The translations under genes were made by a program, and so were the position numbers. From an uncultured Bacteroidales bacterium (GTDB lineage Bacteria; Bacteroidota; Bacteroidia; Bacteroidales; P3), in contig CAJONE010000004.1 of assembly GCA_905235855.1 (NCBI GenBank), positions 48,700 to 112,699 on the forward strand: a stretch of 64,000 nt of DNA, given 5' to 3'. Position 1 is the stretch's first letter, and each line of letters opens with the position of its first letter. Below the pieces are notes generated by a model, which saw only the letters and a program-made list of their open reading frames with translations, was not told the DNA's origin and did not search any database. Shown here piece after piece: positions 48,446-54,438 of this stretch.

Positions 48446-48446
48446 C

Positions 48447-48625
48447 ACATCCTCCATAGCATTATCTCAACAGAAGCCTACCCTCGCCTCTTGCCACCTG
48501 TATGATCACGGCGAGGGCAAGTTTGTGTTGCCCGGCGGCTCGCTTGAACTGGGCATGTATCTCTACACACTCATTACCGACGACGAAATTATAGACACAA
48601 AGAAACTGATGCTGTCAAAATAAAA
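48447..48625 (+). pseudogene. remnant of the C-terminal end of a T9SS cargo protein
   Basis: Directly after panC one frame reads LSQQKPTLASCHLYDHGEGK, then LPGGSLELGMYLYTLITDDE and IIDTKKLMLSK, stop. This matches the last 50 or so residues of a common Bacteroidota T9SS tail type (GMYLYxLIxDGxxIDTKRMILTK). There is no start and no upstream part, so it is a truncated leftover. Confidence 0.7.
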
Positions 48626-48634
48626 ATTGAGTTT

Positions 48635-49545
48635 ATGAAAAAATTATCTTTATCACAGCATTGTTTGCTTACATGTACACCCTGCGGACACAAGACCCTG
48701 AAACGGGACTATACAGGTCATATTTCGTTACAGACACCACGGTCTGGAAATGCTACGAGTCAGATACTGATGATGCTATGTGGGTTTATTATCAATTTAT
48801 TACGGGAGACACCATTGTGGATGATACATTAAATTTCAAAAAATCATATCGAGTCTTTGATTCTTATATCCACCAAAACGACGGTACCTGAGGCAACTGG
48901 GACGAAGAAAGCCTGCATGGTGTCGTTCGGGAGGACAGACACACAGGACGACTGTGGATAAAATTCAATAACTATTGGTCGCATGAGCCGTGGGACGGCT
49001 GGAAATAATTGCGGACCTGTCTCTTTCTGTCGGAGATCGTTTTGACCTATACAGAATAAGTGAAGTAACGGTGGATTTCTCTGGACACAAGATAATAAAA
49101 TTTGGAGGCAAAACTATTCTTGTGGAAGGTGTTGGTCCTTTCTTTTACTATATGCGTCCCCTGCCCTATACGCGCCTTATGTTTACATTACCTGTGTGTG
49201 GCATAATGATTCTTTATACTCCTCACAATCATGGTATGAAGAGTACCTATACAACCCCAATCGCGGATTTTACGTCGAAGGATGCAACCTAATGAAATTG
49301 ATGTGTACCATAGACATAGATATAGACCAAGGAATTGAATTAAAATTACACCCCAATCCATGCACTGAATATTTGTCTATTGAGTGCAAAGAACCGATTA
49401 CGATAATAGATTCCCGCGGACGTGAAGTAATAACGGTAAACACTGTCGATAAAATTATAGACACAAGAAATTTACAGAGGGGGTCTATTTTATCAGGATA
49501 GAACTTAAAAACCGAGCAATAACAAGAAAGTTTGTTAAATTATAG
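48635..49545 (+). pseudogene. decayed secreted protein with T9SS sorting domain
   Basis: Joining frames rebuilds one protein. The start should read MKKIIFITALFAYMYTLRTQ but loses frame in the A-run after ATG (48638-48643). It continues DPETGLYRSYFVTDTTVWKC, meets TGA at about 48889 where TGG (Trp) is expected, runs on as GNWDEESLHGVV and FNNYWSHEPWDGW, shifts frame near 49003 to EIIADLSLSVGDRFDLYRIS, shifts again near 49190, and ends LKLHPNPCTEYLSIECKEPI ... LQRGVYFIRIELKNRAITRK, the latter after an extra G in the G-run at 49479-49483. At least four frameshifts and one stop make a sequencing explanation unlikely for all. Function of the N-terminal part unknown. Confidence 0.75.
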
Positions 49546-49558
49546 GGAATCAAAAGCT

Positions 49559-49774
49559 ATGAAAGAACACAAATCAACCACCATATCGTGTATATCGGCA
49601 ATATCGTATATCGCATTTGTGTTTCTTGCATACAATGTCTCGTGGCAATCAAATCTAAGCGCTGATGGACACATCAGCAATGACGGGATTTTCTCGCCAC
49701 GGGGAGACTTGCGGATTCCGCTTGTCTTCGTGAATTATGGTGAGACGTTCGACTCCGAATATATCGAGAGCTGA
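49559..49774 (+). pseudogene. truncated N-terminus of a secreted protein
   Basis: 71 codons from ATG at 49559: one hydrophobic segment (TTISCISAISYIAFVFLAYNVSW), then SADGHISNDGIFSPRGDLRI and PLVFVNYGETFD, stop. 'FSPRGDLRIPLVFVNYG' resembles the first strand of secreted Bacteroidota proteins of several hundred residues, so only the front is left. It follows the preceding pseudogene by 13 bases. Confidence 0.5.
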
Positions 49775-49890
49775 CCGTCAACGTCTCATTGGCCCAGTTG
49801 GACAATCAAGCCCAGCGGCAGGCTTGAGATAAGATGACCCATAAAGGTATATCCCACTGCACCTCTTTCGACAAAAACAATAATGTTTTT

Positions 49891-49930
49891 TAACTTTGCA
49901 AATCCATACCGCAGCCGACAACATCGGCTG
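49891..49930 (+). promoter_or_regulatory. promoter-like -7 box followed by a hairpin (possible small RNA start)
   Basis: TAACTTTGC (49891-49899) fits TAnnTTTG. Thirteen bases later CAGCCGA, CAACA loop, TCGGCTG (49912-49930) forms a perfect 7-pair stem. No ORF follows for 380 bases. Confidence 0.35.
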
Positions 49931-50189
49931 TAGCACTCGCCGAATATTGATTTACACCAAGATGGAAATCCTCCCACAAAGGAGCGATGATTAAGAAGAG
50001 GACAAAAAGAATAGACTGCGCATGTTGATGTATGGAGACCTGCACGCCTGAATTGAAGTATATGACAATAGTAACTGTATATTCATTTATAAACCCTTAG
50101 CTAACAACAAAAGAAAATTATATTTATTGACAAAACGACGTAGCGTTTCGCCGTGATTGGTGTGCCCGGAATCTGCAAATTTCATTAAG

Positions 50190-50254
50190 CATACAACCAA
50201 CAACACTCGACGGAATGCTTGCGGCTGGCCGCAAGCTTATGTGTTGGTTGTATG
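50190..50254. repeat. composite inverted repeat (two nested stems) before the XRE gene
   Basis: Outer arms CATACAACCAACA and TGTTGGTTGTATG pair over 13 bases without mismatch; inside them GCTTGCGGC, TG, GCCGCAAGC forms a second 9-base stem. The element ends 54 bases before the XRE start codon. It could be an operator, a structured 5' leader, or the end of a small mobile element. Confidence 0.65.
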
Positions 50255-50308
50255 GTATTGCAGAACCACGGGCACTGACATCCGAAGCTCGCGGTTTTTA
50301 TTTGTGCC

Positions 50309-50593
50309 ATGCCAGCAAAGAAAGACGTACATATCGGCCAGGAGATAAAACGCGTTATGCGCGAACGCGGAATGAGCGTCACGCAGTTCGCCAGACTGAT
50401 TTGCTGCCACCGCAAAAACGTCTATGACATCTTTCGCCGCAAGTCCATCGACATCGATCACCTTATCCGCATCTCCGAGGTTCTCGACTACGACTTTATT
50501 CTCAACTGCTACTACGACCAATCCCTAACAGAACAGCGGTTTACGCTTATCCTTCGCAACGGCTCGGAACCCATCTTGGAAAGTCAAGAATAA
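50309..50593 (+). CDS. XRE-family helix-turn-helix regulator
   Basis: 94 residues. The HTH covers residues 8-60: HIGQEIKRVMRERGMSVTQF, then ARLICCHRKNVYDIFRRKSI and DIDHLIRISEVLDYDFILNCYYD. The short C-terminal tail has no recognisable domain. No toxin gene is adjacent, so it is not an obvious antitoxin. It stands between the composite inverted repeat and the five-gene cassette beginning at 50733, which has its own promoter box; control of that cassette or of itself is possible. Confidence 0.85.
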   Translation: MPAKKDVHIGQEIKRVMRERGMSVTQFARLICCHRKNVYDIFRRKSIDIDHLIRISEVLDYDFILNCYYDQSLTEQRFTLILRNGSEPILESQE

Positions 50594-50654
50594 AGTGACA
50601 AAACTGTCACCATTTCTGTTACAGGCATACAGTATAACAACCAAAAAGAGTGAA

Positions 50655-50663
50655 TACCTTTGC
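50655..50663 (+). promoter_or_regulatory. promoter -7 box of the SPFH cassette
   Basis: TACCTTTGC matches TAnnTTTG, about 70 bases before the ATG at 50733. The leader between contains GGAGG (50702-50706), too far from the start to be its ribosome site. Confidence 0.5.
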
Positions 50664-50732
50664 AAATCAAAAATCAATCAAAGGCAAACCGCCGAGGCCA
50701 CAGGAGGCGGAATAACTATTAAACTTTTTATT

Positions 50733-51392
50733 ATGGGTTGTATTTCAACTTTCTATGACGATCCCGTCTCATCAAGCACAAAAAAAGTATCTAAACCTGA
50801 GGAGATTAATGCACGGCACTATTTCGCACCTGTAGGCGGCTGCATCGGCAGATTCACAGCACACAAGGTGACCGATGAGGAGTATGATGCACTCGTCCGC
50901 GAAAAGGCGAACAAATATAACAGCATGCAACATGCACTCGACAAACTCGGCATCGACGAGTCTATGGTGAAAGAGGTTAAGCCTCTGTACCTCGAGGGTT
51001 TCTGCTTCGGCGACGGAATCGACGAAAACCGCGGCAAGGATCTTGTATGGAGAAGTTCTGAATACGAAGTGACCTGGATTTTCTGCGGCGACAACCAAAT
51101 CTATTTCTGGTCATGCCGTTTCAAGATGTTCGCCGACACCAAGAAGGAGGTTGCCGAGGAATACTTCTACAAAGACATCACCAATATCAACTCGTCGTCC
51201 GAATCGTCCGAAGGATATTATTGGAAAGGCAATTGCCTAAAAGGTCAGCATGTGCGTGCCGACCGCGTGACATCGACATTCTGCCTCAGTGCCATGGGCG
51301 ATAAGCGCTACTGCGCCATGACCACCAGCGACGAAGTGGAACGCGCCATCCAGGGCATCAAGTCAAAGCTGCGCGAAAAAAAGAACTCCTAA
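50733..51392 (+). CDS. uncharacterised protein, first gene of SPFH cassette
   Basis: 219 residues from the ATG at 50733 (MGCISTFYDDPVSSS); the ORF track extends into the leader. No signal peptide; an MGC start might be mistaken for a lipid site but lacks a hydrophobic segment. Mixed alpha/beta: a first helical part (VTDEEYDALVREKANKYNSM) and a central part rich in aromatic strands (SSEYEVTWIFCGDNQIYFWS, FKMFADTKKEVAEEYFYKDI), ending in a charged helix (VERAIQGIKSKLREKKNS). I know of similar unannotated proteins with a 'VTWIFF...QIY' core but cannot name a family. The next gene starts 4 bases later. Confidence 0.75.
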   Translation: MGCISTFYDDPVSSSTKKVSKPEEINARHYFAPVGGCIGRFTAHKVTDEEYDALVREKANKYNSMQHALDKLGIDESMVKEVKPLYLEGFCFGDGIDENRGKDLVWRSSEYEVTWIFCGDNQIYFWSCRFKMFADTKKEVAEEYFYKDITNINSSSESSEGYYWKGNCLKGQHVRADRVTSTFCLSAMGDKRYCAMTTSDEVERAIQGIKSKLREKKNS

Positions 51393-51396
51393 TCTT

Positions 51397-51852
51397 TTGA
51401 AACAGAAATCCAATCAGACAAACTCCTGTCTTCGCACAAGGCAGGAGTTTGTTTCAGATGAAGAGTATGTGCGGTGGTATGTACTCCAGCGTGAACTAAC
51501 GCGGCCTCGATATGCTCTGCTACAGTTTGCTTTGTGGCTCGCCGCATTTGCGGCTTGCGTAGCTGCGTTGATTATAGTGGGCAAGCACATCGGCATGGGC
51601 GGCTGGGAATGGCCGACGGCAATAGTGCTAGGGTTCATTGCCTTCGCCCGCTCTTTAATCATAGCAGCCGTAAAAGTCTACCAACGCTATACGCCCGACA
51701 GCATTCGCCGGAACTGTATCCTCGCCCCCACCTGTTCTGAATACTGTATCCTCGCAGTTAAGAAATATGGTGCAATCCGTGGTTGCCAGAAAACCCTACA
51801 CCGCCTTCTGCACACATGCATCGGCGACGACTACCGCGAAGACTGGCCATAA
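51397..51852 (+). CDS. YidD-like protein with N-terminal membrane extension
   Basis: 151 residues from a TTG start at 51397 (an in-frame ATG is lacking before the first helix). Two membrane helices (LLQFALWLAAFAACVAALIIVG and WPTAIVLGFIAFARSLIIAAV) are followed by a YidD domain: KVYQRYTPDSIRRNCILAPTCSEYCILAVKKYGAIRG. The conserved C-x4-PTCS-x-Y is intact. Ordinary YidD is a 70-90 residue peripheral protein near rnpA/yidC that helps membrane protein insertion; here it is membrane-anchored, ends DDYREDWP, and lies inside the SPFH cassette. A role in membrane protein handling is inferred. Confidence 0.75.
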   Translation: MKQKSNQTNSCLRTRQEFVSDEEYVRWYVLQRELTRPRYALLQFALWLAAFAACVAALIIVGKHIGMGGWEWPTAIVLGFIAFARSLIIAAVKVYQRYTPDSIRRNCILAPTCSEYCILAVKKYGAIRGCQKTLHRLLHTCIGDDYREDWP

Positions 51853-51896
51853 AGCACTGTCCAACACATTCATTCATACAATCAAACATCACCAAT

Positions 51897-53009
51897 ATGG
51901 GACTTTTCAACAACCGCAACCAAAACGAAGACGCCTACGTGGGCGGCAAAAAACACTGGGTTGACGTAATCAAGAATTCCGGCGACGAGGATATGCTCGT
52001 ATGGCGGCAACCCGAGGAGGACTTCAACACCAACTCCACCCTCATCGTCATGCCCGGCGAGGAGGCCATGTTTGTGAACGGAGGCCGCATAGAGCAGGTG
52101 TTCACCAGCGGCACCTATAAACTCTCAACCCAAAACTACCCCGTTATCAGCCGCCTGAGGAATTATTTCAGCGGTGGCGTATCGGTGTTCAACTGCGTGG
52201 TGTTCTTCGTCCGCACAGCCTACAGCAAGGAGATAAGCTGGGGCACACAGCGTCCGATACAGTATTTCGACGACACATACCAGGAGATGCAAATCAAGGG
52301 CTACGGAGCTTACAAGGTGAAAGTGAACGACCCTACGGTGTTTCTGGAACGCATGATAGGCAGCAATATCCAGTTCAAGGATGCCGACGACTTGAACGAA
52401 TTCTTTGGAAGCCAATTCTTCCAATATGTCTCCGACGCGATAACCAATTGCCTCGACAATCTCAAGGCATCGCTCAACCAACCTATATACAAGGTGGTGA
52501 GCGGCCACCGCGCAGAGATTGCATCGACCATCGAGCCGGTTCTGGCTCCGATATTGGCACAGAACGGGCTGAAACTTGAAAACTTCTCGGTGGCGCACCT
52601 CAAAGTCGAGGCAGCCGACCCGGAAATGGAGAAACTCATACGCCAAAGAATGGCCATGGATCTTATGCAAGGGGCACAAGTCAATTCCGCATGGCAGGCA
52701 CAGAAACAGGTGGACATCATGACCAACCTCTCCGAAAACCCTGGTGGCGGCGGAATGGCAGCCGCAGGCATGGGTGTAGGCATGGGCATCGGTGCCATGA
52801 GTATGATGGGCAACATCATGGGCGGCATGATGCAAGGAGGTCTGATGGGGCAACCGCAACAGACACAACCACAACCTCAACAGCCAGCCACTCCGGCAGC
52901 CGACGACCCGATGGCAAAACTGCAAAAACTGAAACAGATGCTCGATATGGGACTTATCTCCCAACAGGATTTCGACACCAAGAAACAGGAAATCCTCAGT
53001 AGCCTTTAA
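51897..53009 (+). CDS. SPFH-domain protein with C-terminal SHOCT (YdjI-like)
   Basis: 370 residues from the ATG at 51897. The N-terminus (KKHWVDVIKNSGDEDMLVWRQPEEDF) leads into an SPFH/band-7-like domain (LIVMPGEEAMFVNGGRIEQVFTSGTYKLST ... VKVNDPTVFLERM), a helical part (AEIASTIEPVLAPILAQNGLKLENFSVAHL), a Gly/Met-rich linker (AAAGMGVGMGIGAMSMMGNI), a Gln/Pro stretch, and a final SHOCT motif (DPMAKLQKLKQMLDMGLISQ). It has no obvious membrane helix besides the linker. Similar proteins (often mis-labelled virion core protein) act with zinc-ribbon proteins in envelope stress in Bacillus (YdjI with YdjG/YdjH and PspA). Confidence 0.88.
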   Translation: MGLFNNRNQNEDAYVGGKKHWVDVIKNSGDEDMLVWRQPEEDFNTNSTLIVMPGEEAMFVNGGRIEQVFTSGTYKLSTQNYPVISRLRNYFSGGVSVFNCVVFFVRTAYSKEISWGTQRPIQYFDDTYQEMQIKGYGAYKVKVNDPTVFLERMIGSNIQFKDADDLNEFFGSQFFQYVSDAITNCLDNLKASLNQPIYKVVSGHRAEIASTIEPVLAPILAQNGLKLENFSVAHLKVEAADPEMEKLIRQRMAMDLMQGAQVNSAWQAQKQVDIMTNLSENPGGGGMAAAGMGVGMGIGAMSMMGNIMGGMMQGGLMGQPQQTQPQPQQPATPAADDPMAKLQKLKQMLDMGLISQQDFDTKKQEILSSL

Positions 53010-53027
53010 CCTTTTAATCTATAAGCC

Positions 53028-53843
53028 ATGCACAGAAACATTATCTGGTTCATCCTCGACGCATTGCTCCTAATTGCGTTCAACGTATGTTTCTTTCTTC
53101 TTACCGCCAAAGCCGAGCAATTGCCCACTTCAGTTTGGGTTTGCTATGCGTTCATCCATGTCTCTTATATACTGTTGCTTTGCACCCCGTTTTTTGTTCG
53201 AAAGGGAAACAGGGCTGTTGCAGACTATCGCCGTCCGCTGTATCTTGGCACGTGGACCTATTTTGTGGTGGCGTTCATAGTGAATGCAGCGTTCATACTT
53301 GTATCGCTCAACAGCGTACTCATACAACTTTTCGAACAGCTTCAGCTTTCGCCACGCGAAGGATTCACTGCCTGGCTGGTTCACCGCTTGGTCAATTCCG
53401 AGGGTCTCACCGCAGCATGGCTCCTGAAACTCCTTGGATCGCCTGTCAGTGCCACCGCTGCATGGATAGTGAATGTCATTCTTTTCGCCGCCGCAGGGGT
53501 CTATCTGCTGGTCAATATGCTGGTCAACGAGGATACCGCCGAGCAGCAGGAGCGTCACGAAGAAGAAGCACGCTTCGTTGACAACTTGGCTCCAAGACTT
53601 AAAGTTCTTGTTGATAACGCCAAAAGCAAAGCTTGTGAAACCGAACTGGAGAAAGTTTATTATGCATTGAAAAGCAGTCCGCTGCGCACATGTGCCGAAG
53701 CCAAAGGCATCGAGGCAGAGATAATGCTGCTCGTAGGCGAACTCGAGGAAAACTCCGCAGAGCCAGGGACGATTGCATTGTGCGAAACCATACTGCGTAC
53801 AATCCAAAAACGCAATCGCATAGTGAAAGATAAAATCCAATAA
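53028..53843 (+). CDS. membrane protein with cytoplasmic helical tail
   Basis: 271 residues. Helices at the N-terminus (IIWFILDALLLIAFNVCFFLLTA), about 43-60 (VCYAFIHVSYILLLCTPFF), 78-100 (WTYFVVAFIVNAAFILVSL) and 145-167 (ATAAWIVNVILFAAAGVYLLVNML). After residue 170 comes a charged helical tail (DTAEQQERHEEEARFVDNLAPRLKVLVDNA) and a region with regular Cys/Glu spacing (CETELEKVYYALKSSP). I cannot assign a family. It starts 18 bases after the SPFH gene and is followed by the zinc-ribbon gene, so it probably provides the membrane seat of the complex. Confidence 0.75.
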   Translation: MHRNIIWFILDALLLIAFNVCFFLLTAKAEQLPTSVWVCYAFIHVSYILLLCTPFFVRKGNRAVADYRRPLYLGTWTYFVVAFIVNAAFILVSLNSVLIQLFEQLQLSPREGFTAWLVHRLVNSEGLTAAWLLKLLGSPVSATAAWIVNVILFAAAGVYLLVNMLVNEDTAEQQERHEEEARFVDNLAPRLKVLVDNAKSKACETELEKVYYALKSSPLRTCAEAKGIEAEIMLLVGELEENSAEPGTIALCETILRTIQKRNRIVKDKIQ

Positions 53844-53871
53844 TTCTCATAAAATTTATAATCAAATCACA

Positions 53872-54438
53872 ATGACATCAGTCAATCTTTGTCCCAATTG
53901 CGACTTCTCGTTGGCACCGGACAATAAAGTGTGTCCGAAATGCAATCAGACTGTGGTCGTCAACTCGTCCATTTTGGCCACTATGCCAACCATGCAAGTC
54001 GGCAAATATGCCAAAAGCTACAGCAAGATGCTTGCCGCCGACCCCGACAATCAGGAACTCAACGGCTACGCTGCCATGTGCTACCTTCGACTGAGACTCT
54101 ACGACCGTGCAATGCCTCTTTTTGAAAAGGCAATCGACGAGAACTTCGAATCGTCCGAACCTTATTTTATGGCCGCTATATGCCTGCTTCGTGGCAAAAA
54201 GCCCTTCGTGGCGCGACGTGCCGACATAAACAAGGCTCTGGAATACCTGAATGCCGCCAACCAGCTCGATGAAAAGCCCATTTACCATCTCTTGCTTGGC
54301 TATATCAAGCAGGACTACTTCGACCGTAAATACTTGAACATCGAGCCCACGACACAAGAAGAATACGACCGCGCCGAGGCTCTGGGACTCAGCGAGGACG
54401 ACGAGAAGACGCTCGAAACGTTGCTTGCACAACAGTGA
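53872..54438 (+). CDS. zinc-ribbon protein with TPR-like repeats
   Basis: 188 residues. The first 30 form a double CxxC zinc ribbon (LCPNCDFSLAPDNKVCPKCN). From residue 45 on there are two or three TPR-like helical pairs (YAKSYSKMLAADPDNQELNG, YAAMCYLRLRLYDRAMPLFE, and ALEYLNAANQLDEKPIYHLL). No signal peptide or helix for membrane insertion. It is the last gene of the SPFH cassette, 28 bases after the membrane protein. Zinc-ribbon partners are typical of SPFH/SHOCT stress systems, so an adaptor role is likely. Confidence 0.8.
   Translation: MTSVNLCPNCDFSLAPDNKVCPKCNQTVVVNSSILATMPTMQVGKYAKSYSKMLAADPDNQELNGYAAMCYLRLRLYDRAMPLFEKAIDENFESSEPYFMAAICLLRGKKPFVARRADINKALEYLNAANQLDEKPIYHLLLGYIKQDYFDRKYLNIEPTTQEEYDRAEALGLSEDDEKTLETLLAQQ

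Follow-up and report, generated by a model that had tools for sequence, protein, structure and literature searches.

The 64,000-nucleotide stretch of DNA analysed here (the window), assigned to a rumen bacterium, carries on the + strand at 50309-54438 a cassette of five co-directional genes behind an XRE-type regulator, with successive gaps of 4, 44, 18 and 28 bases. A first-pass annotation had given the same gene positions, order and 4-44 base gaps, all of which hold, and had read the locus as a self-contained set and a candidate undescribed envelope-stress system. The genes are as follows:

50309-50593, + strand: XRE/HTH_26 transcriptional regulator, 94 residues (HTH_26, 2e-7)
50733-51392, + strand: A219, 219 residues, no match to any Pfam, NCBIfam or PADLOC family
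51397-51852, + strand: YidDL, a YidD-like protein (PF01809, 2e-12; TIGR00278, 1e-13), start codon TTG
51897-53009, + strand: SPFH-SHOCT protein, 370 residues (PF13421 Band_7_1, 1e-33; SHOCT, 4e-8)
53028-53843, + strand: TM4, a four-helix membrane protein, 271 residues, no match to any Pfam or NCBIfam family
53872-54438, + strand: zinc-ribbon/TPR protein (ZR), 188 residues (TPR_19, 2.5e-7; DZR, 5e-4)

The Band_7_1 domain of the SPFH protein passes the PF13421 cut-off and is followed by a Gly/Met-rich linker and a C-terminal SHOCT domain, in place of which a GYF_2 domain is found in the SPFH proteins of Bacteroides finegoldii and of genome G076 (L153; such labels denote individual cassette loci in other genomes). 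YidDL comprises a predicted membrane segment and a YidD domain with the Cys/PTCSEY core retained, the domain scores exceeding curated cut-offs (47 versus 27 bits for Pfam, 50.8 versus 40 for NCBIfam), which bears out the YidD-like factor annotated earlier. The match to YidD, the membrane protein insertion efficiency factor of TIGR00278, extends over 54 residues, whereas the N-terminal membrane region is additional; a canonical YidD of 85 residues is encoded on another contig of the genome, and YidDL is therefore an extra, cassette-specific paralogue. The TM4 model (predicted local distance difference test score, pLDDT, 89.1) consists of four membrane helices and a long charged helical tail, which is probably cytoplasmic, and a structure search of the PDB returned no significant match and no solved relative. 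In the AlphaFold model of A219 (pLDDT 90.7), four N-terminal helices lead into a seven-strand barrel, which a C-terminal helix follows, a predicted order of elements that fits a PH-like fold; many A219 relatives in other phyla possess a hydrophobic, transmembrane-like N-terminal helix that the window copy has lost. ZR joins a zinc ribbon (CPxC...CPxC) to TPR repeats. Additional genes occur at some loci, including, in genomes closely related to that of the window, a short TM4 paralogue that stands between SPFH and the main TM4 gene (L030:8104-8502), and an extra zinc-ribbon protein of ~240-400 residues directly before SPFH (L052:5864-6994, L046:3319-4533, L072:528-1253 and L091:4179-5159).

Conservation of the set was assessed by scanning 84,980 species genomes with an SPFH alignment, which yielded 80 loci, around which the cassette genes were called using purpose-built hidden Markov models on six-frame open reading frames. 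SPFH, A219, TM4 and ZR occur together in 34 of the 44 loci with enough flanking sequence, 23 of these 34 also carrying YidDL, in the order A219-YidDL-SPFH-TM4-ZR in Bacteroidota and ZR-A219-YidDL-SPFH-TM4 in most other hosts. Searches anchored on A219 or ZR identified 17 genomes, and SPFH is adjacent in 15 of the 16 informative loci, a further locus, outside these 16, being cut by a contig end. Mean pairwise identities of the cassette genes across loci are 34-56%, and pairwise divergence is correlated among the five genes (Mantel r 0.40-0.70, all p 0.0005), with a contribution from shared host phylogeny. The first-pass annotation had suggested a gene-neighbourhood search and allowed that the five genes might lie together by accident; a chance neighbourhood of unrelated genes is refuted by co-occurrence in the same set and order across many genera and several phyla, and is vanishingly improbable. 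The conserved gene set is real, as the description of it as self-contained had supposed, and its members probably act together.

Most SPFH loci lack toxins and an ATPase, and the cassette genes of the window include no toxin with a variable C-terminal domain and no immunity gene. An expanded form, with all five cassette genes wherever the contigs extend far enough, is present in many Clostridia, one member of the Cloacimonadota and a few Bacteroidota. Its mark is an ATPase of ~890 residues (PF01935 DUF87, with Walker motifs) that adjoins SPFH on the upstream side; 11 of the 44 well-flanked loci have it, as do several that are truncated. This ATPase has a single DUF87/HerA domain, its nearest solved relative being HerA (4d2i), and is mostly followed by one or more inserted proteins; in Ruminococcus albus the complete locus reads ZR-A219-YidDL-HerA-toxin-SPFH-TM4, preceded by a phage integrase and followed by a relaxase and a serine recombinase. 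The inserted proteins end in Colicin-DNase/WHH (2e-25), TNT (3e-9) or papain-fold Gln_amidase (3e-13) domains, or in weak metallopeptidase matches, and begin with regions rich in D/E (median 30% against 13% for other genes, a descriptive figure, since effectors were partly chosen for this property). Varied C-terminal toxin domains thus stand behind one kind of N-terminal region, as in polymorphic toxin systems. At L095:5421-6970, an effector with a Colicin-DNase/WHH C-terminus is followed by a SUKH immunity gene, the sole SUKH locus, and small genes of no known family follow the toxin at other expanded loci. The HerA-type ATPase has no clear homologue in the window's genome, and among 18 genomes whose locus lacks one, 17 gave no match and one gave a partial, distant match. 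Expanded and other loci are interspersed in the SPFH tree, well supported branches of which force at least six state changes, a count that is approximate because the 'other' class includes loci shortened by contig ends.

A recurrent protein of ~98 residues, matching no family, lies right after effectors with metallopeptidase-like HE..H C-termini and is a candidate immunity protein or chaperone:

L064:3597-3890, recurrent ~98-residue protein
L066:6643-6936, recurrent ~98-residue protein
L075:6464-6757, recurrent ~98-residue protein
L079:584-877, recurrent ~98-residue protein
L089:5880-6233, recurrent ~98-residue protein
L095:5013-5309, recurrent ~98-residue protein

Hosts recovered by the SPFH-anchored scan comprise Bacteroidota, Spirochaetota, Bacillota (Clostridia, Lactobacillaceae and Anaerovibrio), Synergistota and one alphaproteobacterial metagenome-assembled genome, binning error being possible for hosts represented by a single case. 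The cassette is sparse within sampled groups, being found in 7/120 congeners of the window's genus, 5/195 genomes of the Treponema family, 3/299 of the R. albus family and 2/351 Lactobacillaceae; none was found in 345 other sampled Bacteroidota, but the species-genome scan did find copies in that phylum, where the cassette is therefore rare, not absent. Genes flanking the window copy do not lie beside the congener copies, the sole matches being generic ones to ABC ATPases (24-32%), and parts of the SPFH tree interleave phyla, the alphaproteobacterial copy falling within a Bacteroidota clade, for instance. Because of this patchy distribution, the differing sites in congeners and the mixing of phyla, the cassette is an accessory, exchanged module. 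Flanks of the minimal form, which has neither ATPase nor toxin, are mixed and mostly housekeeping, with a few ORF6N and integrase genes. A phage origin was rejected, phages giving only weak partial SPFH matches, as was a plasmid origin: the sole plasmid record, B. finegoldii 'plasmid 5' (L131; NZ_OY725907.1 50361-70909), has rny, obgE, adk and hpt alongside the six-gene set, which gives it the look of a chromosomal contig. Location in a defence island was likewise rejected, PADLOC having found no recurrent system among 91 flanking proteins.

To judge from the expanded form, the set may be concerned with protein handling at the membrane, with a HerA-type ATPase able to power it where toxins are dealt with. 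The five genes may accordingly encode an accessory inner-membrane SPFH platform that stands alone in the window and elsewhere supplies the membrane component of a toxin system driven by HerA, a reading held at a little under even confidence, for which we infer assembly, clients, transport direction and regulation from domains. TM4 and YidDL would be placed in the membrane, with SPFH-SHOCT subunits building a ring or patch on TM4, and A219, by way of its putative PH-like barrel and, in many relatives, its transmembrane-like anchor, would dock at the membrane surface. ZR could serve as a soluble adaptor recruiting client proteins, which YidDL would assist into or across the membrane, and the XRE protein would control expression. 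In the expanded form, the added HerA/FtsK-type ATPase might engage toxins by their N-termini, which are acidic and disordered, and force them through the platform or off it; in the minimal form of the window, the platform alone may act in membrane-protein handling or cell protection. A more specific proposal, itself somewhat doubtful, is that the cassette provides the membrane machinery of a hitherto undescribed protein-translocation system (SPFH ring, TM4, YidDL, A219 and TPR/zinc-ribbon adaptor), which would export acidic-leader polymorphic toxins with the HerA-type ATPase in gut Clostridia and Bacteroidota and would serve other clients where the ATPase is lacking, as in the window.

Several observations weigh against a platform of this kind. 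No recognised export domain was found in the toxins, nor any signal for a known exporter among the effectors, and the full five-gene set with the ATPase was seen in few loci (L057, L082, L095 and L134), several expanded loci being cut by contig ends. PH modules are among the top Foldseek matches of A219 in the PDB, none at E <= 0.001. YidDL is missing from the Lactobacillaceae loci L101 and L107, from L150 and from several Bacteroidales, and is therefore not essential to the set, while the exception among the 16 informative A219- or ZR-anchored loci, L148 from a Treponema-family genome, has ZR-A219-YidDL without SPFH or TM4 alongside. At the SPFH/TM4 place of this spirochaete locus lies a different gene, likely of the Rpn family.

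The envelope-stress interpretation of the first-pass annotation would make the cassette a PspA-independent counterpart of Bacillus subtilis pspA-ydjGHI, in which SPFH, zinc-ribbon and membrane partners would stabilise damaged membrane and the toxin-bearing form would be secondary; we consider this rather unlikely. The resemblance is that the B. subtilis system, with its SPFH protein YdjI, likewise combines SPFH, membrane partners and zinc-ribbon domains with no obvious enzyme (PMC8581546, PMC11237479), and the absence of PspA noted earlier extends to the whole genome of the window (93% completeness), in which PspA/IM30 (PF04012) is unmatched, compared with matches in 9/14 controls. The lack of toxins and ATPase at most loci also favours a stress role. 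In contrast to ydjGHI, none of the five proteins matches a TPM-domain (YdjH-like) protein, and the cassette has YidDL, A219, TM4 and the TPR protein, which ydjGHI lacks; a Pfam search of the six locus proteins gave no PspC, LiaF or Toastrack partner. Its sparse presence, including 7/120 congeners, 0/345 other Bacteroidota and 2/351 Lactobacillaceae, its movement between sites and phyla, and the absence alongside of any stress regulator or two-component system, XRE apart, argue against stress as the function. An accessory module in conflict or protein traffic matches the evidence at least as well, because of the patchiness, the differing insertion sites, the exchange across phyla and the version with HerA and toxins.

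Within the realm of conflict, the minimal cassette could be an accessory, XRE-controlled defence or immunity module directed against phage or toxin-armed relatives, as its patchy, exchanged distribution, its XRE-type neighbours, the integrase or relaxase close to some expanded copies and the occasional ORF6N or integrase gene flanking a minimal copy would allow; PADLOC, however, matches none of the cassette proteins except for a weak match to XRE, and the mixed, mostly housekeeping flanks form no consistent defence island, leaving this quite unlikely. In phage defence, HerA-type ATPases are known to work with nucleases, and the expanded form could be an intracellular abortive-infection unit that secretes nothing, with ATPase and toxin kept inactive on the SPFH platform. 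HerA is the closest PDB relative of the ATPase, the effectors lack recognised signals for any known exporter, and some expanded loci likewise place a HerA-type ATPase next to nucleases; in these loci, however, several other toxin domains can take the place of the nuclease, and the conserved five-gene membrane set is present. Abortive infection is very unlikely; against it stand the varied C-terminal toxins, the common acidic N-terminus and the SUKH gene, a combination typical of polymorphic toxins used between bacteria (Zhang et al. 2012, PMC3482391). Expanded relatives share with those systems the kind of N-terminus, the interchangeable C-terminal toxins and SUKH immunity, but the delivery genes differ, SPFH and YidD not being named in the available part of that account, and no toxin accompanies the copy in the window. 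Type VII secretion similarly sets a HerA/FtsK superfamily ATPase (EssC/YueA) beside toxins, and the possible PH-like protein of the cassette has a parallel in EsaC, to which PMC3482391 ascribes a PH-like fold; the expanded-form ATPase is nevertheless a single HerA-type core, not an EssC-type multi-domain protein, and no inserted protein has a Pfam match to WXG100/LXG.

Two further features lie around the regulator:

50190-50254, + strand: structured leader/inverted repeat 5' of XRE, 13-base-pair perfect arms around a 9-base-pair hairpin
50655-50662, + strand: Bacteroidetes -7-like box TACCTTTG, without a matching -33 element

Of the promoter annotated at 50655, the good -7 box TACCTTTG stands, but no TTTG/TTG -33 element was found at the correct distance from it. 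The structured element reported before XRE is real, with an RNA folding z of -3.6, and is present as a single copy in the genome; a role as a conserved riboregulator was rejected, there being no Rfam match and no such inverted repeat 5' of XRE in four relatives. The regulator ahead of the set is a recurrent element, XRE-type genes lying at the 5' end of the cassette in many loci, pointing the same way as the cassette in Bacteroidota and away from it in Spirochaetota, with similar genes in L029, L030, L037, L044, L153 and B. finegoldii (L131). Between leader and regulator, a GC-rich stem and T run (50262-50308) ends right before the XRE start and resembles an intrinsic terminator or attenuator. 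The region 5' of the cassette (48446-50300) is low in GC (41-43% versus 50%), and an open reading frame within it (49196-49501) resembles a fragment of a type IX secretion C-terminal sorting domain.

The earlier description of the cassette as undescribed agrees with a literature search that found no account of it, subscription papers and most preprints being beyond its reach; neither Zhang et al. 2012 nor Ravi et al. 2024 mentions YidD in its available part. Any novelty lies in the combination of genes, SPFH, YidD and TPR domains being individually known families, and it is rare for a set with two family-less proteins to be conserved across several phyla. Cultured hosts are available for the minimal form (Levilactobacillus yonginensis, Anaerovibrio lipolyticus and B. 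finegoldii) and for the expanded form (R. albus). The cassette lends itself to testing the role of YidD paralogues and SPFH cages. Through its association with interchangeable toxins and a HerA-type ATPase, it also provides a testable entry into the possible movement of toxins through the inner membrane of gut and rumen bacteria.
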